Shown here: one piece after another, positions 3,422 through 41,655 of the stretch
Layout: the number at the start of each line of letters is the position of its first letter
Numbering within the stretch: the first letter of the stretch is position 1
From: Candidatus Moraniibacteriota bacterium
Lineage (GTDB): Bacteria > Patescibacteriota > Minisyncoccia > Moranbacterales > UBA1568
Direction of reading: 5' to 3'
Length of the DNA: 46,229 nt
Assembly: GCA_013334245.1 (NCBI GenBank)
Contig: JAAXXZ010000010.1
Span: forward strand, 1-46,229
Notes under the pieces: generated by a model
Seen by the model: the letters and a program-made list of their open reading frames with translations, nothing else
What the model was told of the DNA's origin: nothing
Database searches by the model: none
Position numbers and translations under genes: made by a program

Positions 3422-5017
3422 ATGTACGACCTTCTGATCAGGAACGGCACCGTGATCGACGGCTCGGGAACTCCTATGTTCCGGGCAGATGTCGCCGTGA
3501 AGGAGGACAGGATCGTCATGATCGGCGACCTTCGTGACGCGACGGCCGAGAAGGTGATCGATGCCGCCGGGTGCTATGTTTCGCCGGGATTCATCGACGT
3601 GAACAATCACTCCGACACCTACTGGGAGATTTTCCGGAATCCGGGCATGCACGGTATGCTCCTGCAGGGCGTTACGACGATCGTGGGCGGCAACTCGGGC
3701 GCCTCGCTCGCCCCGCTTATCGAACCCGAGAGTATCCGCGCGATCCAGAAATGGACGGACGTCGATGCCGTGAGCTTCAATTGGCTCTCGATGAAAGAGT
3801 TTCTCGCGGAAATGGAGCAGCGTCCGTTGTCCGTGAACTTCGCGACCCTTGCCGGTCACGGGACGATCCGTCGCGGCGTGCTCCGGAATCCGACCAAGAC
3901 CCCGTCCGAAAACGATCTTTCCACGATGCGATTGCTGTTGCGCCGGGCACTGGACGAGGGAGCCATAGGTTTCTCGACCGGACTCAAATTCACGCATGCG
4001 CGATTGGCCGAGAATCGTGAGATCGCCGGGTTTCTCGAACTGGCAGCGAAACGCAAGCGTGTCTATGCGACATACATCCGCGATGAGGGATCCGAGTTGT
4101 TGCGGTCGATCGAGGAAGCCATCGTGCTGGCGAAGGAGGCCGGTGTCGCGCTTCACATCTCTCACCTTAAGGCGGTGGGGAAGCGGAACTGGCATCTGTT
4201 CGGCGAAGCGCTCGATACGGTTCGGAACGCGGCCCAGGACGGCCTCGACGTGAGTTTCGACGTCTATCCGTATACGGCGAGCGGATCCGTACTCTACACC
4301 CTTCTTCCCGATTGGGTTACCGAGAGCGGTCGGAAGACGACCCTGCATCGCTTGGGGGACTTCAAGGTCCGGCAGGCCGCGATACGCGATATGCGGGAGA
4401 GCGGGCTCGATTATGCCGGCATGAAACTGTTCATCTCGAACCTGAGCCCGATGACCGGCCCGAGGACGGTGGAAGAGATAGCGAAGTCGCAACGGAAGGC
4501 TCCGGAGGAGGTCGTGATCGACATTCTGCTCGGAAGCGGCGGGCGTGCCATCGTTTCACTCGAGGTTTCGAGTCCCGAAAACGTCGCGAAAGCTGTGCAA
4601 CATCCGTTTTCCATCATAAGTTCGAACGGTGTGGGATATTCGGCGGAATACGGGTCGACCGGAAATATGGCCCATCCGAGAAACTTCGGCACGTTCCCGA
4701 AGGTGTTCGCGGAATATGTTCGCGGACGCCAGACCCTTTCGTGGGAAGAGGCGGTGCACAAGATGACCGGGAAGCCGGCGACGAAGTTCGGACTCGCGGA
4801 CCGCGGCTTCTTGCGGGAAAAAGCCAAGGCTGATATCGTGATATTCGATCCGGCGACCATCGTTGATCGCTCCACGATGGACGATCCGTTCCGGTATCCG
4901 GACGGAATCCGCGCGGTGATCGTCGGCGGGAGAATCACGGCCGAGAACGGGGTCTGGAACGGCACCCGAGCTGGTGAGACGATACGGAGTCGCCGACACG
5001 GATTTCTACGGGGGTAG
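3422..5017 (+). CDS. amidohydrolase of the N-acyl-D-amino-acid deacylase family with altered metal ligands
   Basis: The 531-residue protein has the overall plan of D-aminoacylase and dihydroorotase-like amidohydrolases. There is an N-terminal beta-sandwich strand (LLIRNGTVIDGSG), a TIM barrel, HISHLK at about 245-250, DVYPYTASG, and the C-terminal HPRNFGTFPKV and KADIVIFDP blocks. Several metal ligands of the characterised family are changed. The usual HxH after GFID reads NNH (N61-H63), the usual GNCG reads GNSG (S92), and the usual SDG reads SNG (N402). It may therefore bind one metal or none, or use another substrate, so the deacylase name gives only the fold. The ATG at 3422 opens the conserved first strand. 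It lies 26 bases before murD. Confidence 0.75.
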   Translation: MYDLLIRNGTVIDGSGTPMFRADVAVKEDRIVMIGDLRDATAEKVIDAAGCYVSPGFIDVNNHSDTYWEIFRNPGMHGMLLQGVTTIVGGNSGASLAPLIEPESIRAIQKWTDVDAVSFNWLSMKEFLAEMEQRPLSVNFATLAGHGTIRRGVLRNPTKTPSENDLSTMRLLLRRALDEGAIGFSTGLKFTHARLAENREIAGFLELAAKRKRVYATYIRDEGSELLRSIEEAIVLAKEAGVALHISHLKAVGKRNWHLFGEALDTVRNAAQDGLDVSFDVYPYTASGSVLYTLLPDWVTESGRKTTLHRLGDFKVRQAAIRDMRESGLDYAGMKLFISNLSPMTGPRTVEEIAKSQRKAPEEVVIDILLGSGGRAIVSLEVSSPENVAKAVQHPFSIISSNGVGYSAEYGSTGNMAHPRNFGTFPKVFAEYVRGRQTLSWEEAVHKMTGKPATKFGLADRGFLREKAKADIVIFDPATIVDRSTMDDPFRYPDGIRAVIVGGRITAENGVWNGTRAGETIRSRRHGFLRG

Positions 5018-5043: not shown

Positions 5044-6456
5044 ATGAGGAAAGAGGATCTCAAGGGGAAGCGGGTGACCGTGTTCGGGCTCGGCGTGAAT
5101 GAGGGCGGGGTCGGAACCGTGGAGTTTCTGGAGCACTCCGGTGTCCGAGACATCGTCGTCACTGACATGAAGCGACGCGAGCGTCTGCTTCCGTCACTGA
5201 ACCGGCTTTCCCGTTACGGGAATATCACGTATGTCCTCGGGCAGCATCGGCCCGAGGATTTTTCGCGGACGGATCTGGTCGTGAAGAACCCGGTGATACC
5301 GTGGACGAACGAATACGTCCGTCTCGCCGAATCGCAAGGGATTCCGGTCGAGATGGATTCGGGTATCTTCTTCGAGAACTGCGAGAATCCGATCATCGGG
5401 GTGACCGGCACGAAGGGGAAGACGACGACTTCAAGCATGATCGCCCATGTCTTTCGGGAATCGGGACGAGGCGTCGTTCCGGTCGGCATCGGTCGCGCGC
5501 CGGTGCTCGGCGCCCTTGGCCGGATCCGCGCGAAGGACACGGTCGTGTTCGAACTGTCGAGTTGGAGGCTTTCGGCGCTCCGCCGCTTGAAAAGGAGCCC
5601 CAATATTGCCGTCTTCACGAATTTTTTCCCCGATCATCTCGACCATTACCGGTCGATGTCCGAATATCTCTCGGATAAGAAGGCGCTCTACGAGTTTCAG
5701 AAAAAAGGCGACATCCGTATCGTCGATATGACGCTCGGTTTTGCCGACGATCAAAATGTCCTATCGGAGTACGTCCCGTTCTCGGCAGCCGGTGGCCCGC
5801 TCGAACGTGGCGCGTTCTTCTCGGGAGACGAGGCGGTCATCGTGCGTGGTGGGGAGCGGACAGTCCTCTTTCGGAAGTCCGATCTGCGGATTCACGGAGG
5901 CCACGTTCTTGCGGCGGCGCTTCCGGCGGCATCGGCGGCATTCGTGTCGGGTATCCCGTCGGAAAAAATCTCGGCCGCGTTGCGGACGTTTCGCGGGCTT
6001 CCTCACCGGGTCGAGATCGTCGCGGAACATCGTGGCATCACGTTCTATGACGATTCCGCCGCGACGGTCCCGGAAGCAGCGGTTTCAGCTCTGCGCTCGT
6101 TTGATCGTCCCGTTATCATCATCGCGGGAGGTTCCGACAAGCGGCTCGATTTCGGATCGTTGGCGGAAGAAATCCTGCGGAAGGCCAAGGGCGCCGTCTT
6201 TTTCGAAGGACCAGGAACGGAGCGATTGCTTCGGGAAATCAGAAGCCGTCTCCCCGAATCGGAGAAGGATCGTCGGTTTGAGACGGTGTCCGATATGGGG
6301 AAGGCCGTCGAGCTCGCATACCGATCGGCGGAGCCCGGCGACATCGTGCTTCTCTCGCCCGGGGCCGCGAGTTTCAGTCTGTTCCAAAACGAGTTCGACC
6401 GGGGCGAACAATTTCAGGATGCGGTCAGGAACGGTATCATGAAGAACAAGCGGTAG
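5044..6456 (+). CDS. murD: UDP-N-acetylmuramoylalanine--D-glutamate ligase (MurD-type Mur ligase)
   Basis: ATP-dependent ligase that adds glutamate to UDP-MurNAc-L-Ala in cytosolic peptidoglycan synthesis. The 470-residue protein has an N-terminal Rossmann-like domain (VFGLGVNEGG), the ATP-binding loop GTKGKTT at about 122-128, FELSSWRL (ELSSFQL in typical MurD), NFFPDHLDHY, the HNAL-like region, and the C-terminal IIIAGGSDKRLDF block. The ATG at 5044 was chosen over an upstream in-frame start because it leads straight into the first conserved strand. A second MurD-like ligase fused to MurL occurs at 34996-37518, so this copy may be the D-Glu-specific enzyme or a divergent paralogue. Confidence 0.85.
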   Translation: MRKEDLKGKRVTVFGLGVNEGGVGTVEFLEHSGVRDIVVTDMKRRERLLPSLNRLSRYGNITYVLGQHRPEDFSRTDLVVKNPVIPWTNEYVRLAESQGIPVEMDSGIFFENCENPIIGVTGTKGKTTTSSMIAHVFRESGRGVVPVGIGRAPVLGALGRIRAKDTVVFELSSWRLSALRRLKRSPNIAVFTNFFPDHLDHYRSMSEYLSDKKALYEFQKKGDIRIVDMTLGFADDQNVLSEYVPFSAAGGPLERGAFFSGDEAVIVRGGERTVLFRKSDLRIHGGHVLAAALPAASAAFVSGIPSEKISAALRTFRGLPHRVEIVAEHRGITFYDDSAATVPEAAVSALRSFDRPVIIIAGGSDKRLDFGSLAEEILRKAKGAVFFEGPGTERLLREIRSRLPESEKDRRFETVSDMGKAVELAYRSAEPGDIVLLSPGAASFSLFQNEFDRGEQFQDAVRNGIMKNKR

Positions 6457-33293: not shown

Positions 33294-33353
33294 GGGTAGG
33301 TGCCAGAGCGGTCAAATGGAGCAGACTGTAAATCTGCCGGCTTCGGCCTTCGG
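33294..33353 (+). pseudogene. partial tRNA-Tyr: exact 60-base copy of the 5' part
   Basis: These 60 bases, from the first base of the mature tRNA through the acceptor 5' strand, D arm, GTA anticodon arm and most of the variable arm, are identical to 33679-33738 of the intact tRNA-Tyr. Identity stops exactly at the mature 5' end on the left. On the right the T arm is replaced: ATTTA, then GGGTTCG, then a palindromic insert. It cannot form a functional tRNA. Confidence 0.9.
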
Positions 33354-33358
33354 ATTTA

Positions 33359-33409
33359 GGGTTCGCCCGGCATGCGCCGGGCGCCCCGCGCAGGCGGGGC
33401 GAATCCCTC
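33359..33409 (+). repeat. palindromic insert in the T-arm region of the broken tRNA-Tyr
   Basis: GGGTTCG (33359-33365) and GAATCCCTC (33401-33409) resemble the two sides of the T arm. Between them lie two perfect hairpins: CCCGGC ATGC GCCGGG (33366-33381) and GCCCCGC GCAG GCGGGGC (33383-33400). The right side, AGGCGGGGCGAATCCCT, is almost the same as that before the second GIY-YIG gene (AGGCGGGGCGATTCCTT). Confidence 0.85.
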
Positions 33410-33420
33410 GTTTCATAAGT

Positions 33421-33684
33421 ATGTATTACGTCTATATCCTGAGAAGCGGAAAGGATCAGATGTTCTACACCGGCATGACCGGAGATTTGAAAAGAAGGAT
33501 GCTTGAACATCGGACCGGTAAAGTTGAATCGACTCGGTCGAGACGTCCGCTTGAACTGCTGTGCTATGAGGCATATACTCGAAAGGAAGAGGCTGAGCGG
33601 CGAGAGAAATTTCTGAAGTCAAGCGATGGGAAAAAGGATCTGAAAAAGAGGTTGAAGGAGAGTTTGGAAGAAGAGAATGGGTAG
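33421..33684 (+). CDS. small GIY-YIG nuclease (UPF0213/YhbQ-like), tRNA-Tyr-linked
   Basis: The 87-residue single-domain GIY-YIG protein has YYVYILRSGKD and FYTGMTGDLKRRMLEH (the GIY and YIG strands with the catalytic Arg region), YEAYTRKEEAERREKFLK with the metal-binding Glu, and a basic C-terminus. Proteins of this size are stand-alone nicking or cutting modules found in homing endonucleases and DNA repair. The ATG at 33421 is 20 bases after the palindrome. The stop codon (TAG, 33682-33684) lies inside the acceptor stem of the intact tRNA-Tyr, so gene and tRNA overlap by six bases. Its placement suggests a mobile module targeting the tRNA. Confidence 0.85.
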   Translation: MYYVYILRSGKDQMFYTGMTGDLKRRMLEHRTGKVESTRSRRPLELLCYEAYTRKEEAERREKFLKSSDGKKDLKKRLKESLEEENG

Positions 33685-33761
33685 GTGCCAGAGCGGTCAA
33701 ATGGAGCAGACTGTAAATCTGCCGGCTTCGGCCTTCGGGGGTTCGAATCCCTCCCTGCCCA
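33679..33761 (+). tRNA. tRNA-Tyr(GTA)
   Basis: Acceptor GGGTAGG (33679-33685) pairs with CCTGCCC (33754-33760). The anticodon stem is GCAGA/TCTGC with loop CTGTAAA (anticodon GTA), with a long class II variable arm and T arm GGG-TTCGAAT-CCC. The discriminator is A. Its first six bases are also the end of the nuclease gene. Confidence 0.95.
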
Positions 33762-33767
33762 CAAAAT

Positions 33768-34209: not shown

Positions 34210-34269
34210 GGGGGTGTCGTATAGTGGCAGTACAACGGTCTCCAATCCCGCCTCTCGCGAGAGGCGGGG
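34210..34269 (+). pseudogene. partial tRNA-Trp joined to a palindrome
   Basis: Positions 34210-34245 copy the intact tRNA-Trp from its first mature base to the base after the CCA anticodon, with one T-to-C change in the D loop. A 24-base palindrome (34246-34269, centred on CTCG|CGAG) replaces the rest of the anticodon arm and variable region. It is followed by CGATTCCT, matching the T loop of the intact gene, and then diverges. Confidence 0.88.
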
Positions 34270-34285
34270 CGATTCCTTCCCTGGT

Positions 34286-34534
34286 ATGCATTACGTATAT
34301 ATCCTGAAAAGCGAAAGGGATGACGGATATTATATCGGAAGTTCCAGAGATCTGAAAAGAAGGAAAGCGGAGCATGATCAGGGTTTGGTTGAAGCCACGC
34401 GTCATAGAAGACCTCTCATATTGATTTATTATGAGGCGTATAGTACAAAAGAAAGAGCGCAAGAGCGAGAAAGGAAACTGAAAGATTTCGGTTCAGCGTA
34501 TAAGGGGCTATTGAAGCGGTTGGGTGAGTGTTGA
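34286..34534 (+). CDS. small GIY-YIG nuclease, tRNA-Trp-linked
   Basis: The 82-residue GIY-YIG protein is a diverged paralogue of the nuclease at 33421-33684: HYVYILKSERDDGYYIGSSRDLKRRKAEHD, then YYEAYSTKERAQERERKLKDFG. Both GIY-YIG strands, the Arg-containing helix and the downstream Glu are kept, so it looks active. It starts 16 bases after a palindrome-bearing tRNA-Trp fragment and stops seven bases before the intact tRNA-Trp, the same plan as the Tyr module. The two proteins differ at many positions, so the modules are not recent copies of each other. Confidence 0.85.
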   Translation: MHYVYILKSERDDGYYIGSSRDLKRRKAEHDQGLVEATRHRRPLILIYYEAYSTKERAQERERKLKDFGSAYKGLLKRLGEC

Positions 34535-34541
34535 AGGATGA

Positions 34542-34612
34542 GGGGGTGTCGTATAGTGGTAGTACAACGGTCTCCAAAACCGTTTGTGTAGGTTCGATTC
34601 CTACCGCCCCTG
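34542..34612 (+). tRNA. tRNA-Trp(CCA)
   Basis: Acceptor GGGGGTG (34542-34548) pairs with CGCCCCT (34605-34611), with a G-U pair at the end and one inside. The anticodon stem ACGGT/ACCGT encloses CTCCAAA (anticodon CCA), and the T arm is GTAGG-TTCGATT-CCTAC. The discriminator is G. CCA is not encoded. The sole intact Trp gene seen. Confidence 0.92.
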
Positions 34613-34767
34613 CGTGGAGAGTGCAGACATGAGACGTGAGAAATCATGTACAACGGTCTCCAATCCCGCCCTTCGCGAAGGGCTGGGCGATTCCTACCGC
34701 CCCTGCGTGGAGAGTGCGGACATGAGACGTGAGAAATCATGTACAACGGTCTGCAACCCCTGCTGGA
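34562..34767 (+). repeat. tandem units made of tRNA-Trp 3' parts plus spacer
   Basis: Unit 1 (34562-34647) starts inside tRNA-Trp at GTACAACGG and runs to AAATCAT. Unit 2 (34648-34740) repeats it with one spacer change (GCAGAC to GCGGAC). In unit 2 the stretch after CTCCAA is replaced by a 24-base palindrome (34664-34687). Unit 3 begins at 34741 and decays after about 20 bases. Units 2 and 3 are non-functional tRNA remnants. Confidence 0.88.
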
Positions 34768-34829: not shown

Positions 34830-34902
34830 GGCCCTATCGTCTAGCGGTTTAGGACACCACCCTCTCACGGTGGGAACAGGGGTTCGAGTCCCCTTAGGGT
34901 CA
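34830..34902 (+). tRNA. tRNA-Glu(CTC)
   Basis: Acceptor GGCCCTA (34830-34836) pairs with TAGGGTC (34895-34901). The anticodon stem CCACC/GGTGG encloses CTCTCAC (anticodon CTC), and the T arm is AGGGG-TTCGAGT-CCCCT. The discriminator is A. A terminator follows at once. Confidence 0.94.
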
Positions 34903-34906
34903 CAGA

Positions 34907-34936
34907 AAAAACGCCCCGCATTTGCGGGGCGTTTTT
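34907..34936 (+). terminator. terminator of the tRNA island
   Basis: AAAAACGCCCCGCA (34907-34920), loop TT, TGCGGGGCGTTTTT (34923-34936): a strong intrinsic terminator. Confidence 0.9.
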
Positions 34937-34942
34937 CGGTCA

Positions 34943-34995: not shown

Positions 34996-37518
34996 ATGAC
35001 CGCATCTCCGAAAGCGAAGACTTTCGCATTCACTTCCTACGAGCTCGATCCCGAACGGAAACAGGCCGTTTTCCGGTATGAAATCAGGTTCGAAGACCGT
35101 CCGACGATGGCATTTTCGGAAACCGTCATATTCCCGAGGGAATTTTTCCTTTCCGATGTTCCTTCCGGATTGCTGAAGAACGTTCTTGCGAGCGTCCATA
35201 TCATGCTCGGTATCAGCTACTATAAACTGTATTGTCCGAAGGAAATCGTGCTTTTCGCGCCCCTTTCGGAGGATCAGGCGGATTTTTGGAACACGGTCTA
35301 CCGGAAGGGATTGGGTGAATTCTTTTTCAGGAATGGGATCGATCCGAACGGATTGATCGCGTTCCCGTTCGTGAAGGGTATCGTCGACCGGCCGCATTCG
35401 CCGAAAAAATGGAAGGACAGATCACTTGTCGGCATCGGCGGCGGAAAGGATTCGATCGTCGCCGGTGAGTTGTTAAAGGGGGGCGGGGAGGATATCACGG
35501 CTCTTCTTGTCGAGACGCAGAGGCATTCGCCGGTTTCGGACAGGGTCGTCGTAGAGATGGGGGTGCCGTCGATGCGAATCCTGCGTCTGCTTGATGAATC
35601 GCTTTTCGAAAGACATGAGGGTGCGTACAACGGTCATATCCCGATTTCGGCCGTTTTCGCCATGCTCGGATACCTCGCGGCGGTCCTGTATGATTACGCG
35701 CGAGTGGTGGTCGGGAACGAATACAGCAGCAACTTCGGAAACGTCACGTATGCCGGAGAGGAGGTGAATCATCAGTGGAGCAAATCGTCGGAATTCGAGG
35801 AACTGTTCCGGGAGTATGCGAACAGGTATCTTTCTCCGGATGTCACGTACTTCTCCCTGCTTCGCCCGTTTCATGAGATCCGTATCGCGAAGATGTTTTC
35901 GAAACATGCGAAATATTTTCCGTATTTCACCAGCTGCAACAGGAGCTTCAGGGTTCATGAGTCGAGACCTGACACGCTGTGGTGCGGGGAATGCGCGAAG
36001 TGCGTCTTCGTGTTCACGCTCCTTTCCTCGTTCCTCCCAGAAAAGGACCTTTTGCATATTTTCGGTAGGAACCTTTTCGATGACGAAAACCTGGTACCGC
36101 TCTTCGGAGACATACTCGGTTTCGGGGACATGAAGCCTTTCGATTGCGTCGGAACGTTCGAGGAGGCACGGGCGGCACTCTATCTTTCTGCTGAAAAATA
36201 CGGGGAGAGCGTCATCATGCGGACATTCCTGCCGAGAATCGGCGATGCGAGCGGTCTTATGGAGGACGTGTTCCGGTACCGGGACGCTCCCGCTCTCCCG
36301 GATCGCTACAAACTCCTCGGCATCGATAGCGTGCTGATCCTTGGGTACGGAAAGGAGGGAAGGTCGACGGAAACATATCTCAGGAGACGGTTTCCGGGAC
36401 TGAGAATCGACGTAGCTGACAAGGATTCGGATCCCGAATATCTGCAACGGCAAAGGACGTACGATCTCGCCATCAAGACTCCCGGTATACCGAAGGGGCT
36501 TCTGACGATTCCGTATACGACCGCGACCAACCTGTTTTTTTCCGAAGTCCGCAACGTGACGATAGGGATAACCGGGAGCAAGGGGAAGAGTACGACCGCT
36601 TCTCTCGCGTACGAGATGCTGAAGGGAGCGGGAAAGAAGGTCCGATTGTTGGGCAATATCGGGAACCCGATGCTCGATGCGTTGTCCGGACCTATCGATC
36701 CGGAAGAGATATTCGTCGTTGAACTTTCCAGTTACCAGCTCGACGATATACGATACGCGCCGGATATCGCGGTCGCGCTCAACCTGTTCCCCGAACATAT
36801 GACCTATCATGGCGGAATGGAGCAGTATTACGAGGCGAAACGGAATATCGTCTCGCTGCAGATGCCCGGAGACGTGTTCCTCTATGACGGGAGCGATGCG
36901 CGCCTGGTCGCGTGGGCGGAGTCGGCCGTTTCCGAAACCGCGTCGTTTTCCGATATTTCTCTTCAGGGTTTCGAGTCGCGTCTCATCGGTTCGCACAATG
37001 AAAAAAATATCCGCGCCGCGATCGCGATCGCGAGGCGGTTCGACGTTTCCGACGGGGTTATCCGGAAAACGCTCGCGGCGTTTCTTCCGTTGCGACACCG
37101 ACTCGAAAATATCGGAGCCTATCACGATATAACGTTTTACGATGACGCCATCTCAACGGCTCCGGAATCGACCATCGCCGCGCTTGAGGCCGTTCCGGAC
37201 GTCGATACCCTGTTTCTGGGCGGAGAGGATCGCGGATATGATTTTTCCGAGCTGGAACGGCGCATACGCGAGAAGGGCGTCCGGAACATTGTGCTGTTTC
37301 CCGGCAGCGGACGGAGCATGTTCCGTACGCGTGACGGATTGAACGTTTTTGAAACGAGAAGCATGGAAGACGCCGTCGCGTTCGCATACGCCCATACGGG
37401 AAAAGGGAAGGTATGCCTATTGTCCACGGCTTCGCCGAGCTACAGCCTGTGGAAGAACTTCGAGGAAAAGGGCGATCAGTTCCGGGACTGGGTCATCAAA
37501 CTTGGCAGAGAGAGATAA
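34996..37518 (+). CDS. murL: MurL-MurD fusion: UDP-MurNAc-L-Ala-L-Glu epimerase joined to a Mur ligase
   Basis: The 840-residue two-domain enzyme starts with residues 1 to about 435, which match MurL: SYYKLYCP, the nucleotide-binding GIGGGKDS at 146-153, VGNEYSSNFGNV, NHQWSKSSEFEELF, YFSLLRPFHEIRIA, FTSCNRSF, WCGECAKCVFVF and FGRNLFDD. Residues from about 440 are a complete MurD-type ligase: LILGYGKEG, GITGSKGKSTT at 524-534, VELSSYQLDD, NLFPEHMTYHG and FYDDAISTAPES. In Xanthomonas, separate MurD2 adds L-Glu to UDP-MurNAc-L-Ala and MurL then epimerises it to D-Glu. Here both steps are probably in one polypeptide, removing the need for glutamate racemase. The ATG at 34996 follows the promoter closely; the frame is open further upstream into the tRNA. 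Confidence 0.88.
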   Translation: MTASPKAKTFAFTSYELDPERKQAVFRYEIRFEDRPTMAFSETVIFPREFFLSDVPSGLLKNVLASVHIMLGISYYKLYCPKEIVLFAPLSEDQADFWNTVYRKGLGEFFFRNGIDPNGLIAFPFVKGIVDRPHSPKKWKDRSLVGIGGGKDSIVAGELLKGGGEDITALLVETQRHSPVSDRVVVEMGVPSMRILRLLDESLFERHEGAYNGHIPISAVFAMLGYLAAVLYDYARVVVGNEYSSNFGNVTYAGEEVNHQWSKSSEFEELFREYANRYLSPDVTYFSLLRPFHEIRIAKMFSKHAKYFPYFTSCNRSFRVHESRPDTLWCGECAKCVFVFTLLSSFLPEKDLLHIFGRNLFDDENLVPLFGDILGFGDMKPFDCVGTFEEARAALYLSAEKYGESVIMRTFLPRIGDASGLMEDVFRYRDAPALPDRYKLLGIDSVLILGYGKEGRSTETYLRRRFPGLRIDVADKDSDPEYLQRQRTYDLAIKTPGIPKGLLTIPYTTATNLFFSEVRNVTIGITGSKGKSTTASLAYEMLKGAGKKVRLLGNIGNPMLDALSGPIDPEEIFVVELSSYQLDDIRYAPDIAVALNLFPEHMTYHGGMEQYYEAKRNIVSLQMPGDVFLYDGSDARLVAWAESAVSETASFSDISLQGFESRLIGSHNEKNIRAAIAIARRFDVSDGVIRKTLAAFLPLRHRLENIGAYHDITFYDDAISTAPESTIAALEAVPDVDTLFLGGEDRGYDFSELERRIREKGVRNIVLFPGSGRSMFRTRDGLNVFETRSMEDAVAFAYAHTGKGKVCLLSTASPSYSLWKNFEEKGDQFRDWVIKLGRER

Positions 37519-37575
37519 CGGGAATCCCTGTTGAAATATCATCTTTCCCATCGTCGGTTTCAGGTGAAAAACGAA

Positions 37576-37611
37576 AAAGTCCATGCGGGGCGCTGCTGCC
37601 GCATGGACTTT
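37576..37611. terminator. bidirectional terminator
   Basis: AAAGTCCATGCGG (37576-37588), a 10-base loop, CCGCATGGACTTT (37599-37611). It separates murL-murD (+) from aspartokinase (-). Confidence 0.82.
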
Positions 37612-37614
37612 CCG

Positions 37615-38943
37615 CTACTTCTTCACGAACGCCTCGTAAATCGCGCGGATGGCGTCCTCCATACGCTCCGCGTCGACCCCGACGGTGATCATGAGTTCGA
37701 GAGCCCCCTGGTTAAGCATCCGGATGTTGATCCCGTTTGCTGAAAGCACGTTCGTCAGCGTAGCCAGTACTCCCGGCGCGCTGACCATGCCCTGGCCGAC
37801 AACCGTTATCACGCCGATGTTGTCATCCCTCGCAATCATGTCCGGTCTGTGTTCGATACGGACCGATTCGAGCGCGAGCGCGAGCGCGTGCATGTCGACC
37901 GTGTCCTTTTCGATGACCATCGACACGGTGTTGTTGGATCCCGGGAAGTGCTGCACGTTGATTCCGAACTCGGCCATCGTGGCCAGTACTTTTGACATGA
38001 ATCCGACCTCCTGATTCATGCCTCGTTTTCCGACCGTGACGACGATGAACCGCTTCCCGGAGAGGCCGGTGATCGAATACGGATGCCGTTCACCCTCACC
38101 CCTCTCTTTCATGACGAGTGTTCCCTCGTCGTCCGGATCGTTCGTGTTGAGGATCCGGATCGGAATGCCAAGTTCGAGTGCCGGAGTGATCGCATCCCGA
38201 TGGAAGACTTTCGCTCCGCCGTCTGAAAGCTCGAGGAGCTCACCGTGCGTCATGAATCGGATGACCTTTGCTTCCTTGATGATTCTCGGGTCTGCCATGC
38301 GGACCGGCGTATCCGACCAGTTCTCATAAAGATCCGCTCCGACGCCGTGTGCGACGACCGCTCCGGTCGTGTCCGATCCACCGCGATCGAATGTCTTGAT
38401 GCTGCTGTCCGGAAGCGAACCGTAATATCCCGGAATGACAGCTTTGCGGCATTTGAAGCTGAAGCGGCTGATTCTCACGAACGTATTTGTCTCGTCGAAC
38501 CTGCCGTCTTCGTGGAAGCGAACCAGATCCTTCGCGTCGACGAATTCGTATCCGAGCGCTTCCGCGACGATCTGCGCGTTCAGGAATTCGCCCCGGCTTG
38601 CCACATGGTCCCGAGAGGCACCATCCGTAATGGCCTGTCGTATGTCTCCGAGCAGGCTTTCGATGTCGAGTCCGAGTCCGAGATCTTTTACGATCTCCCT
38701 GAATCGTTCGGCGACCTTATTAAACTCGACTTCGAATGACTCGCTCGCCTCGTGTAGGACATGACATCCGATGAGCAGGTCCGTAATCTTCTCATCGTCC
38801 GTGCCGGCACGTTTTCCCGGTGCGGACACGACGATGTAACGCCTGTCGGGTTTTTTCCGTATGATCTCGATCACTTTCCTGATCTGCTCGGCGTCGGAAA
38901 GGCTTGACCCTCCGAATTTTGAGACGATTGGTTTGCTGTGCAT
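37615..38943 (-). CDS. lysC: aspartate kinase
   Basis: Phosphorylates aspartate, the entry to the diaminopimelate/lysine, threonine and methionine pathways. The 442-residue protein has the N-terminal kinase signature KFGGSSL at 9-15, RGGSDTTGA in the catalytic core, and two ACT-type regulatory domains at the C-terminus (about 300-442), the usual site of lysine or threonine feedback. No other gene of the pathway is in the window. In a peptidoglycan-making cell, feeding diaminopimelate synthesis is the likeliest purpose. Confidence 0.93.
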   Translation of the reverse strand: MHSKPIVSKFGGSSLSDAEQIRKVIEIIRKKPDRRYIVVSAPGKRAGTDDEKITDLLIGCHVLHEASESFEVEFNKVAERFREIVKDLGLGLDIESLLGDIRQAITDGASRDHVASRGEFLNAQIVAEALGYEFVDAKDLVRFHEDGRFDETNTFVRISRFSFKCRKAVIPGYYGSLPDSSIKTFDRGGSDTTGAVVAHGVGADLYENWSDTPVRMADPRIIKEAKVIRFMTHGELLELSDGGAKVFHRDAITPALELGIPIRILNTNDPDDEGTLVMKERGEGERHPYSITGLSGKRFIVVTVGKRGMNQEVGFMSKVLATMAEFGINVQHFPGSNNTVSMVIEKDTVDMHALALALESVRIEHRPDMIARDDNIGVITVVGQGMVSAPGVLATLTNVLSANGINIRMLNQGALELMITVGVDAERMEDAIRAIYEAFVKK

Positions 38944-39017: not shown

Positions 39018-39098
39018 GATTCAGGTCTCTCGCTTCGGTTTGTTTTCCCGTCCGGAAAATGATACCCTTGAGTGGTTATCATCGTGCATATCCGCCGT

Positions 39099-39809
39099 AT
39101 GGCTACGCTCATTTTCGATATAGAAACGGTCGGGGAAGACTTCGATGCGCTGGACGAGACGACCAGGGAGTCGCTCACCCGGTGGATTCGTCGCGAGTCG
39201 TCGGACGAGGCGGAATATGAGGTAGCACTCGGAACCGTCAGGGACGAGTTGGGTCTCTCGCCGCTGACGGGCGAGATCGTGGCCATCGGCATACTCGACG
39301 CGGAGCGCGATAAGGGCGCGGTCTATTTCCAGCACCCCGGAGACGAAGGGAAGACGATCGAGGACGGGGCGTTCAAATTCGAATCCATGTCGGAGAAGGA
39401 TATGCTTGCGAAGTTCTGGGAGGTCGCTGAAAAATACGATACGTTCGTTTCCTTCAACGGCCGGTCGTTCGACGCTCCGTATCTCATGATCCGTTCCGCG
39501 ATTCATGGCGTCAGGCCGGGCAAGAACCTGCTCGCGAACCGGTACGTGAACTATCAGCCGGGGAACGCGAAGCATGTCGACCTGCTCGAACAGCTTTCGT
39601 TTTACGGCGCGCTCCGCCGAAGGGGGAGTCTGCATCTGTGGACGCGGGCGTTCGGCATCGAGAGTCCGAAGGCGGGAGGGGTATCAGGGGACGATGTGGG
39701 AAAACTGTTCCATGACGGGAAGTACGAGGAGATAGCGCGATACAATTCCGAAGATCTTCGGGCGACGTCGGCACTGTATCGGAAGTTTACGGATTATCTG
39801 TCAATGTGA
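39099..39809 (+). CDS. 3'-5' exonuclease of the PolB-exonuclease-like family
   Basis: The 236-residue DEDD-superfamily nuclease has motif I LIFDIETVG at 4-12, motif II region FVSFNGRSFDAPYLMIRS, and motif III with YNSEDLRATSALY. The layout fits stand-alone relatives of the family B DNA polymerase proofreading domain (PF10108-like). It would trim single-stranded DNA ends, probably in repair; the substrate is not known. The ATG at 39099 was chosen because the catalytic strand follows directly. One base separates its stop from the next start. Confidence 0.85.
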   Translation: MATLIFDIETVGEDFDALDETTRESLTRWIRRESSDEAEYEVALGTVRDELGLSPLTGEIVAIGILDAERDKGAVYFQHPGDEGKTIEDGAFKFESMSEKDMLAKFWEVAEKYDTFVSFNGRSFDAPYLMIRSAIHGVRPGKNLLANRYVNYQPGNAKHVDLLEQLSFYGALRRRGSLHLWTRAFGIESPKAGGVSGDDVGKLFHDGKYEEIARYNSEDLRATSALYRKFTDYLSM

Positions 39810-39810
39810 T

Positions 39811-40920
39811 ATGGAACGAACCGGATCCGGACTGCGCGAAGCGCTCCTTACCGACGCCAAAACGGGACTCGAGGCATTCCGTGAGCGGATCAATCCGCTG
39901 CTTCGGGAACACTTCGACACCGTCATACACGAGACCGCGCGGGAGGACGAACTTGTCGCCGGCGCGCTCACCGAGGTGCGGGATATCATCCTGGCGGGCG
40001 GCAAACGGCTCCGCGCGGCGTTCATGTGCGCGGGATACTTCGCGGCCGGCGGGACCGACGAGGAGCGCATACTTAGCGCATCGATGAGTATCGAACTTAC
40101 CCACGCTTTCCTGCTCGTGCACGATGACGTGATCGATCGCGACGATCTCCGTCACGGGCGCCCGTCGCTCCATGCGCAGTACGCGCGCTTCGGTCAGACC
40201 GTCTTCCCGAGAGCGGAAGACGCGGCGCATTTCGGCGATTCGATCGCCATCATCCTAGGCGACATGGTCGCCGCGCTCGGGAACGACCTGATTTTCCGAT
40301 CCGGTTTTCCGAACGAGCGTATCTTCCGGGCGCTTTCCGAGCTGCAGCGCATCGTTTCCTACACCGTGATCGGTCAGGCCATGGACCTTTCGTTCGAATT
40401 CCGAAAGGATATCGGTCGAGAGGATGTCCTGCGGATGTATGAATACAAGACCGCGAAATATACGGTAGAGGGCCCGCTGACGCTCGGAGCCCTCCTGGCC
40501 GGCGGTGACGAAGAACTGATTGCCTCGCTCGGACGGTTCGCCGTTCCAACGGGAATCGCGTTTCAGATCCGTGACGATATTCTCGGTGCGTTCGGGACCG
40601 AGAAGAAACTGGGAAAACCGGTAGGCTCCGATGTGGAAGAGGGAAAGCGGACGTTGCCGGTTTTGTTCGCCTTGGAAAGGCTCGAACAGGACGGGCGCGC
40701 GGAGCTGATGCGGATACTTGACGCCGGCAGTCTTGGAAAAGGCGACCTGGAACGTTTCCGACAGATGCTTCGGGATTCGGGCGCGCTTGATTCATCGACG
40801 GATTCCATGGTTCAATTGGTGGAGGAGGCGAAGCGGTCGATAACATCGGCCGATGTTCCCGATGACGCGAAGGGATTCCTTGTATCCGTCGCCGATTACA
40901 TCTCCGAGCGGAATTTTTGA
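39811..40920 (+). CDS. polyprenyl diphosphate synthase (trans-type, GGPP-like)
   Basis: Chain-elongating isoprenyl transferase, 369 residues. The first aspartate-rich motif is LVHDDVIDRDDLRHG with GGKRLR upstream; the second is FQIRDDILGAFG, where the fifth position of DDxxD is G, as in several relatives. Product length cannot be predicted. It sits directly before uppS, so together they could make the allylic primer and the undecaprenyl carrier used in cell-wall and glycan assembly. Confidence 0.88.
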   Translation: MERTGSGLREALLTDAKTGLEAFRERINPLLREHFDTVIHETAREDELVAGALTEVRDIILAGGKRLRAAFMCAGYFAAGGTDEERILSASMSIELTHAFLLVHDDVIDRDDLRHGRPSLHAQYARFGQTVFPRAEDAAHFGDSIAIILGDMVAALGNDLIFRSGFPNERIFRALSELQRIVSYTVIGQAMDLSFEFRKDIGREDVLRMYEYKTAKYTVEGPLTLGALLAGGDEELIASLGRFAVPTGIAFQIRDDILGAFGTEKKLGKPVGSDVEEGKRTLPVLFALERLEQDGRAELMRILDAGSLGKGDLERFRQMLRDSGALDSSTDSMVQLVEEAKRSITSADVPDDAKGFLVSVADYISERNF

Positions 40921-40941
40921 TATACGACGATAGCAAACGAT

Positions 40942-41655
40942 ATGAGCGAGACGTCATCCGTCATTCCGAATCATGTTGCCATCATTCCCGACGGAAACCG
41001 TCGGTGGGCGCGCGGCCGCGGTCTTGAACCCTGGAAGGGACACGAGGAGGGCGCGAAGACCATGAAGGAACTTATCAAGGCCGCACGCGATCTCGGCGTG
41101 CGGGAGCTTTCGCTGTGGGGATCGTCGCTCGAGAATCTTAAGAAACGGCCGATCGAAGAGAGCCGCGAGCTGCTGAGGATTTATTCGGAACAGTTCCGTG
41201 AGCTTTCGGAAAGTGAAGAGTTGGTAAAGGAACAGGTGCGCGTAAGGATTATCGGCCGGTGGCGCGAACAGTTCCCGGCCTCCCTGACCGGATTGCTTAC
41301 CGAGATAGAAGAGAAGACGAAGGAGCATAGCGGACATTTCCTCAACTTCTTTCTCGCATACAGCGGAATGGACGACATGCTCCAGGCGTTCCGTTCCGTC
41401 GCCGGATCGTCGCTTCGGGCGGAAAGCATATCCGAAGTGACCGTGAAGGGGCTGCTTATGTCCCGAGAGGTCGCGCCGGTCGACCTTCTCATACGGACCG
41501 GTGGGGATGCACATCTTTCAGCCGGCTTCCTCATGTGGGAAACGGCCGATTCTCAGCTCGTTTTTTCGGAGAAGCTGTTTCCGGACTTCGGTCGCGATTC
41601 GCTGAAAGAGGCGGTCGAAGAATTCTCCGGCCGCGAGCGAAGATTCGGAAAATAA
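40942..41655 (+). CDS. uppS: cis-prenyltransferase, undecaprenyl diphosphate synthase
   Basis: Adds isoprene units in cis to form the lipid carrier for peptidoglycan and surface glycans. The 237-residue protein has NHVAIIPDGNRRWARGRG near the start with the catalytic Asp (bacterial consensus MDGNGRWA; the PDGNRR form is more common in archaeal-type enzymes). SSLENLKKRP stands where FSTENWKRP is usual, and DLLIRTGGDAHLS is near the C-terminus. Several motif changes suggest a divergent branch whose chain length could differ from C55. It follows the trans-polyprenyl synthase by 21 bases. Confidence 0.88.
   Translation: MSETSSVIPNHVAIIPDGNRRWARGRGLEPWKGHEEGAKTMKELIKAARDLGVRELSLWGSSLENLKKRPIEESRELLRIYSEQFRELSESEELVKEQVRVRIIGRWREQFPASLTGLLTEIEEKTKEHSGHFLNFFLAYSGMDDMLQAFRSVAGSSLRAESISEVTVKGLLMSREVAPVDLLIRTGGDAHLSAGFLMWETADSQLVFSEKLFPDFGRDSLKEAVEEFSGRERRFGK

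Follow-up and report, generated by a model that had tools for sequence, protein, structure and literature searches.

A murL-murD2 gene fusion in a Moraniibacteriota genome and its probable part in a racemase-free supply of D-glutamate

Gene architecture at the fusion locus

The stretch of DNA analyzed here (the window) covers 46,229 nucleotides, positions 1 to 46,229 of the forward strand of contig JAAXXZ010000010.1 (C23), in the 1.117-Mb draft genome of Candidatus Moraniibacteriota bacterium (GCA_013334245.1; completeness, 95.5%; labeled G000). It carries one gene in which an N-terminal MurL-type epimerase and a C-terminal MurD-type ligase are joined, and whose product is probably (about 85%, judged from sequence) a bifunctional peptidoglycan precursor enzyme that bypasses free D-glutamate (D-Glu) and glutamate racemase (MurI).

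34996..37518, + strand: MurL-MurD2 fusion gene, 840 residues, identical architecture at 28 loci
34996..36228, + strand: MurL half, residues 1 to 411 (NF041275 match; AlphaFold)
36229..36330, + strand: linker, residues 412 to 445, partly helical in the AlphaFold model
36331..37494, + strand: MurD half, residues 446 to 833 (TIGR01087; best Protein Data Bank [PDB] folds MurD)

The frame is unbroken, being open from 34816, with an ATG at 34996 and a stop that ends at 37518. NF041275 (MurL, NCBIfam) matched residues 7 to 411 over nearly the full model (346 bits; E value, 1.9e-103), and TIGR01087 (murD) matched residues 446 to 833 with 244 bits, above its cutoff of 212. The AlphaFold model of the whole protein (80 aligned sequences) reached a predicted local distance difference test (pLDDT) score of 95.2 and a predicted template modeling score of 0.91, with MurD as its best PDB folds, while the MurL half had a mean pLDDT of 94.8. 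Both halves are under purifying selection, with nonsynonymous-to-synonymous rate ratios (dN/dS) of 0.17 (MurL half) and 0.19 (MurD half), and Candidatus Moranbacteria LaPlata-7m bin-649 (G001) carries the same fusion at 96% identity. An earlier reading of the letters alone (the sequence-only reading) had described one 840-residue protein uniting two families that are separate in Xanthomonas, with the key motifs of both intact, and had proposed structure prediction of both halves; these descriptions were borne out by the profile matches, alignments, and models, and the Xanthomonas loci were indeed read as split genes.

Specificity residues of the ligase half

In Xanthomonas oryzae MurD2, E197, R358, P433, and F435 replace D182, K348, A414, and L416 of Escherichia coli MurD; the double change E197D/R358K makes this MurD2 a D-Glu enzyme, and K319T makes E. 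coli MurD accept L-Glu (PMC8788868). The corresponding residues were read from an alignment of 174 MurD sequences.

36787..36798, + strand: FPEH, E600 at the E. coli D182 position (Glu in MurD2)
37138..37158, + strand: YDDAIST, I719 at the K319 position
37219..37233, + strand: GGEDR, R746 at the K348 position (Arg in MurD2)
37429..37446, + strand: ASPSYS, P814 and Y816 at the A414 and L416 positions (Pro and Phe in MurD2)

The fusion thus has the MurD2 signature, with Tyr816 in place of Phe, and has Glu and Arg where the canonical enzyme has D182 and K348. It also keeps the equivalents of the ligase catalytic residues N138, E157, H183, K198, H301, and D317. Glu at position 182 was found in 22 of 28 fused MurDs, 40 of 57 split ones from Patescibacteria, and 44 of 46 split ones from Proteobacteria/Actinobacteria; in the same order, the counts were 27, 51, and 43 for Arg at 348, 23, 36, and 42 for Pro at 414, and 24, 40, and 43 for Ile at 319. 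The ordinary MurDs (n = 37, a set combining those of relatives that lack MurL with the stand-alone copies from G000, G001, and G225) had D182 and K348 in 36 sequences each, A414 in 28, and Ala or Thr at 319. Most MurL partners of Proteobacteria/Actinobacteria had E, R, P, and F in the same columns, validating the alignment. The ligase half is therefore best read, from these residues, as a putative MurD2-type enzyme adding L-Glu.

X. oryzae MurD2 and MurL (XOO_1320 and XOO_1319; PMC8788868, PMC5808125) belong to the same families, share the ligase specificity residues, and likewise occur without MurI; gene order at Xanthomonas loci, murL and then murD2, is that of the fusion. They are separate proteins there and one polypeptide here, with ∼37% identity between the MurLs. 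In the canonical system, free D-Glu comes from MurI and the ligase has D182/K348-type residues, a pattern matched in this genome by a stand-alone MurD (see below) and not by the fusion.

A QueC-like fold predicted for the MurL half

MurL uses one ATP, converted to AMP, per turnover in a one-way L-to-D epimerization, for which an adenylated alpha-carboxylate has been proposed, and no known conserved domain has been reported in it (PMC8788868, PMC5808125). The fusion keeps the MurL motifs GGGKDS, NHQWSKS, SCN, WCxxCxKC, and KPFxCVG, two segments of which bear on the fold.

35437..35454, + strand: PP-loop motif GGGKDS, residues 148 to 153, (nearly) invariant in MurL alignments, facing SGGQDS in the alignment to E. 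coli QueC
35932..36003, + strand: QueC-like Cys motif SC(314)N...WC(330)xxC(333)xKC(336), a probable site for zinc that aligns with QueC CYNGFKGDGCGHCAAC

In the MurL alignments, C314, C330, and C333 were invariant and C336 nearly so. In a Foldseek comparison, the PDB folds closest to the MurL half were QatC (3.7e-6) and QueC (2.2e-5), followed by TtuA and Cap9, and a MurL profile search matched the PP-loop of TtuA and MnmA. Moreover, hhalign placed GGGKDS on SGGQDS and SCN...WCGECAKC on the zinc motif of QueC (P = 3.7e-4). Like QueC, QatC, and Cap9, MurL appears to carry a loop of SGGxDS type and an in-register C...CxxCxxC motif; a difference is that the spacing is C(x)8CxxCxxC in QueC and C(x)15CxxCxxC in MurL, which acts on a UDP-MurNAc-dipeptide and has extra N-terminal and C-terminal parts. 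PF06508 (the QueC family) matched neither the fusion nor 21 MurL sequences, so the link is one of resemblance and not of family membership, and a 2026 survey of PF06508 makes no mention of MurL (PMC13329287). Since QueC binds zinc and converts a carboxylic acid with ATP (PMC13329287), a QueC-like adenylating MurL is the natural reading: the prediction for the MurL half is a PP-loop enzyme resembling QueC, Cys motif included, and this would fit ATP-to-AMP activation of a carboxylate.

Mutual exclusion of MurL and glutamate racemase

As the sequence-only reading had anticipated, a search for MurI in the 95.5% complete draft gave no PF01177 or TIGR00067 match. Across the phylum, TIGR00067 was above its cutoff in 0 of 58 genomes with MurL and in 92 of 322 others (Fisher P = 4.7e-8, ignoring relatedness), and 10 families contained both MurL and MurI genomes, never in one species. 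PF01177 was rejected as a test for MurI: it matched 17 of 62 MurL genomes, and none of these that belong to the sample reached the glutamate racemase cutoff (their best TIGR00067 score, 54 bits, versus a cutoff of 147), so that PF01177 alone would hide the exclusion.

Distribution and origin of the fusion

Whole-genome searches detected MurL in 58 of the 380 sampled genomes of the phylum (∼15%), four weak matches being left aside. In a scan of named genomes, MurL occurred in Patescibacteria, Xanthomonadales, Alphaproteobacteria, Magnetococcales, and Actinoplanes; two reviews list MurL/MurD2 for Gammaproteobacteria, Alphaproteobacteria, and Actinobacteria and do not mention Patescibacteria (PMC8788868, PMC5808125). 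At most loci murL and murD are neighboring genes. They form one frame at 28 loci, all from Patescibacteria (Moranbacteria, Staskawiczbacteria, Uhrbacteria, Peribacteria, Falkowbacteria, and further metagenome-assembled genomes); relatives from Xanthomonas, Stenotrophomonas, and Actinoplanes have two separate genes. In every fusion found, MurL is N-terminal and MurD C-terminal.

Quick trees without bootstrap placed the window among 21 fused MurL rows that form one clade (Shimodaira-Hasegawa-like approximate likelihood ratio test support, 95), beside split Roizmanbacteria, and the MurD tree recovered the identical 21-member clade (support, 96). Because the fused/split label requires six changes on the MurL tree, four of them forced by its starred branches, the fusion appears to have arisen more than once or to have been partly reversed. 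Fusions with the same order of halves also occur outside the main clade (L078, L102, L108, L123, L130, L168, and L169), which suggests repeated fusion. The sequence-only reading had held that split genes in close relatives would count against it; such genes were found in the nearest split relatives (Roizmanbacteria), and, being adjacent there, they display the route by which the fusion originated and were not judged to contradict it.

An assembly or sequencing artifact joining two neighboring genes is scarcely credible. Adjacent murL and murD genes, which often overlap in relatives, could be joined by a single stop loss; against this stand the 28 fused loci, the 21-member clade in both trees, the independent G001 assembly with the fusion, and a linker that aligns continuously. 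The artifact is refuted because independent genomes carry the fusion. A viral origin was also rejected, as no MurL relative was found on viral contigs.

Probable replacement at the murI and murD slots

The surroundings of the fusion were compared with those in members of the same genus.

34830..34903, + strand: tRNA-Glu(ctc), left anchor of the slot occupied by murI in the genus-mate G003
34906..34938, + strand: terminator-like hairpin separating tRNA-Glu from the fusion (-23.6 kcal/mol; z, -5.3)
37615..38943, - strand: aspartate kinase, at the place of IMPDH in G003
39072..41655, + strand: right anchor block RNase H-like, IspA-like, and UppS, 74% DNA identity to G003 over 2.6 kb
3422..5017, + strand: amidohydrolase (PRK09061-like, below cutoff), preceding murD here and the fusion in G004 and L152

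The order in G003 is tRNA-Thr, L33 region, tRNA-Trp, tRNA-Glu(ctc), murI, IMPDH, and the RNase H-like/IspA-like/UppS block, with a glutamate racemase gene above cutoff (187 bits) that is preceded by a hairpin similar to the one before the fusion. These anchors recur in the window, where they enclose the fusion and aspartate kinase; a consensus scan upstream of the fusion found no promoter. A second context was found in G004, of the same genus, and in L152, in which the fusion directly follows the amidohydrolase gene, the place of murD in G000, G001, G002, G003, G005, and G006. G004, G019, and G045 have no MurD besides the fusion, and none of the three has a PF01177 racemase. Given the anchors shared with G003 and the amidohydrolase context in G004, the fusion occupies the slot of the racemase gene in one species and that of the ligase gene in a second; since the ordinary genes are more widely distributed, it presumably replaced them.

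Divergence between G000 and G001 was uneven around the fusion. The synonymous rate (dS) was 0.04 for the MurL half, 0.16 for the MurD half, and 0.63 for the adjoining aspartate kinase (80% identity), and in window 36316 to 38943, compared with L137 of G001, the MurD half and aspartate kinase exceeded most neighbors in divergence, a pattern that reads as a recombination mosaic.

Proposed route and further sources of D-Glu

The first D-amino acid of the cell wall peptide usually comes from a racemase. In the proposed route, the MurD2-type half would attach L-Glu to the cell wall building block and the MurL half would then flip the attached residue to the D-form, so that neither the usual glutamate racemase nor free D-Glu would be needed; MurA, MurC, MurE, and MurF are present in this genome. 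The activities of both halves are presumed from their sequences and the order of ligation and epimerization from Xanthomonas, and substrate may be handed over between the two sites. The basis comprises the fusion itself, its motifs and MurD2 residues, the absence of MurI, the phylum-wide exclusion of MurI and MurL, and the slot replacement.

Several observations weigh against this proposal. The 346 bits of the MurL half are below the NF041275 cutoff of 700, which is set at the level of Xanthomonadales and was reached by none of the Patescibacteria matches. The 95.5% completeness of the draft makes the absence of MurI less than absolute. The MurD2 signature has exceptions and is not absolute, since 6 of 28 fused MurDs keep Asp at 182, including that of G019, the sole MurD there. 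The genus-mates G002 and G005 have neither MurL nor a PF01177 racemase, and a further source of D-Glu may therefore exist in this genus. Finally, G000 and G001 keep an intact D-Glu-type MurD, which the sequence-only reading had omitted, and a class IV aminotransferase of G000 (C8, 12306 to 12953), which could feed this ligase, scores best against the D-amino-acid transaminase model but ambiguously so (138 bits versus a cutoff of 320).

5044..6456, + strand: stand-alone MurD, D-Glu type (D, K, and A at the specificity positions), TIGR01087 333 bits

Thus, the fusion may not be the sole D-Glu route in G000. With this qualification, the earlier proposal of functional coupling and D-Glu supply is supported, and more strongly than it was put at first, by two intact halves under purifying selection, the MurD2 signature, the lack of MurI, the exclusion, and the murI slot. 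A tentative variant, which overlaps the bifunctional-enzyme reading and is rather unlikely, is that the fusion is functional yet secondary or transitional in G000 and G001 beside the stand-alone MurD and a transaminase. Consistent with it, neither MurD-type gene is disrupted and purifying selection acts on each (dN/dS, 0.155 for the stand-alone copy and 0.19 for the fused half), and two MurDs occur among MurL genomes only in G000, G001, and probably G225; the weak transaminase assignment and the position of the fusion in the murI slot of G003, as expected of a main D-Glu source, argue otherwise. More distant still is an ordinary ligase half using D-Glu from a transaminase, with the MurL half acting on another substrate or only repairing misincorporated L-Glu. 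This improbable alternative would accommodate the aminotransferase, the retained stand-alone MurD, and the apparent ability of G002 and G005 to manage without MurI or MurL, but it conflicts with the MurD2-type specificity residues, with the replacement of the sole murD in the three genomes above without a PF01177 racemase, and with the fact that MurL and MurI never co-occur. As a separate observation, all 37 aligned stand-alone MurDs of this order (L015 to L044, L139 to L142, and window 5044 to 6456) carry Ile or Val where the E. coli enzyme has N138 and Glu where it has F422, and they may act on an atypical substrate.

The enzyme families and the MurD2-MurL route were already known, previously only as separate proteins. 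A literature search, with subscription papers mostly outside its reach, found no account of the fusion, of its spread in Patescibacteria, or of the slot replacement, and none of MurL from the candidate phyla radiation or of glutamate racemase from Patescibacteria. The bifunctional-enzyme reading would extend a racemase-free route, known in few Proteobacteria/Actinobacteria, to the above share of sampled Patescibacteria genomes, partly as one protein. Gene-for-gene replacement of murI becomes visible among closely related genomes, the L-Glu/D-Glu switch becomes testable within one polypeptide, and the QueC-like PP-loop offers a structural lead on the MurL mechanism. The broader composite, in which the fusion evolved several times in Patescibacteria, spread between lineages, and displaced murI in one and murD in the other of two sister species of a genus, with a QueC-type carboxylate-adenylating MurL half, we regard as evenly poised.

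Neighboring features

The amidohydrolase gene, which adjoins murD in this genus or, in G004 and L152, the fusion, raises a possible link to recycling of peptidoglycan amino acids. In G001, a CRISPR-like repeat (GTTTCAATCCTCTGCGAGTGCAAT...) lies just upstream of the fusion (L137, 1 to 130), at the place of tRNA-Glu in the window. Two GIY-YIG-like open reading frames (∼33423 to 33684 and ∼34287 to 34534) lie within window positions 33294 to 33762 and 34210 to 34613, each flanked by a truncated 5' tRNA copy (tRNA-Tyr, 60 nucleotides, exact; tRNA-Trp, 41 nucleotides, 93%) and an intact tRNA, and more partial tRNA-Trp copies occur at 34648 to 34760. This arrangement resembles that of an element whose insertion into a tRNA gene leaves the gene restored.
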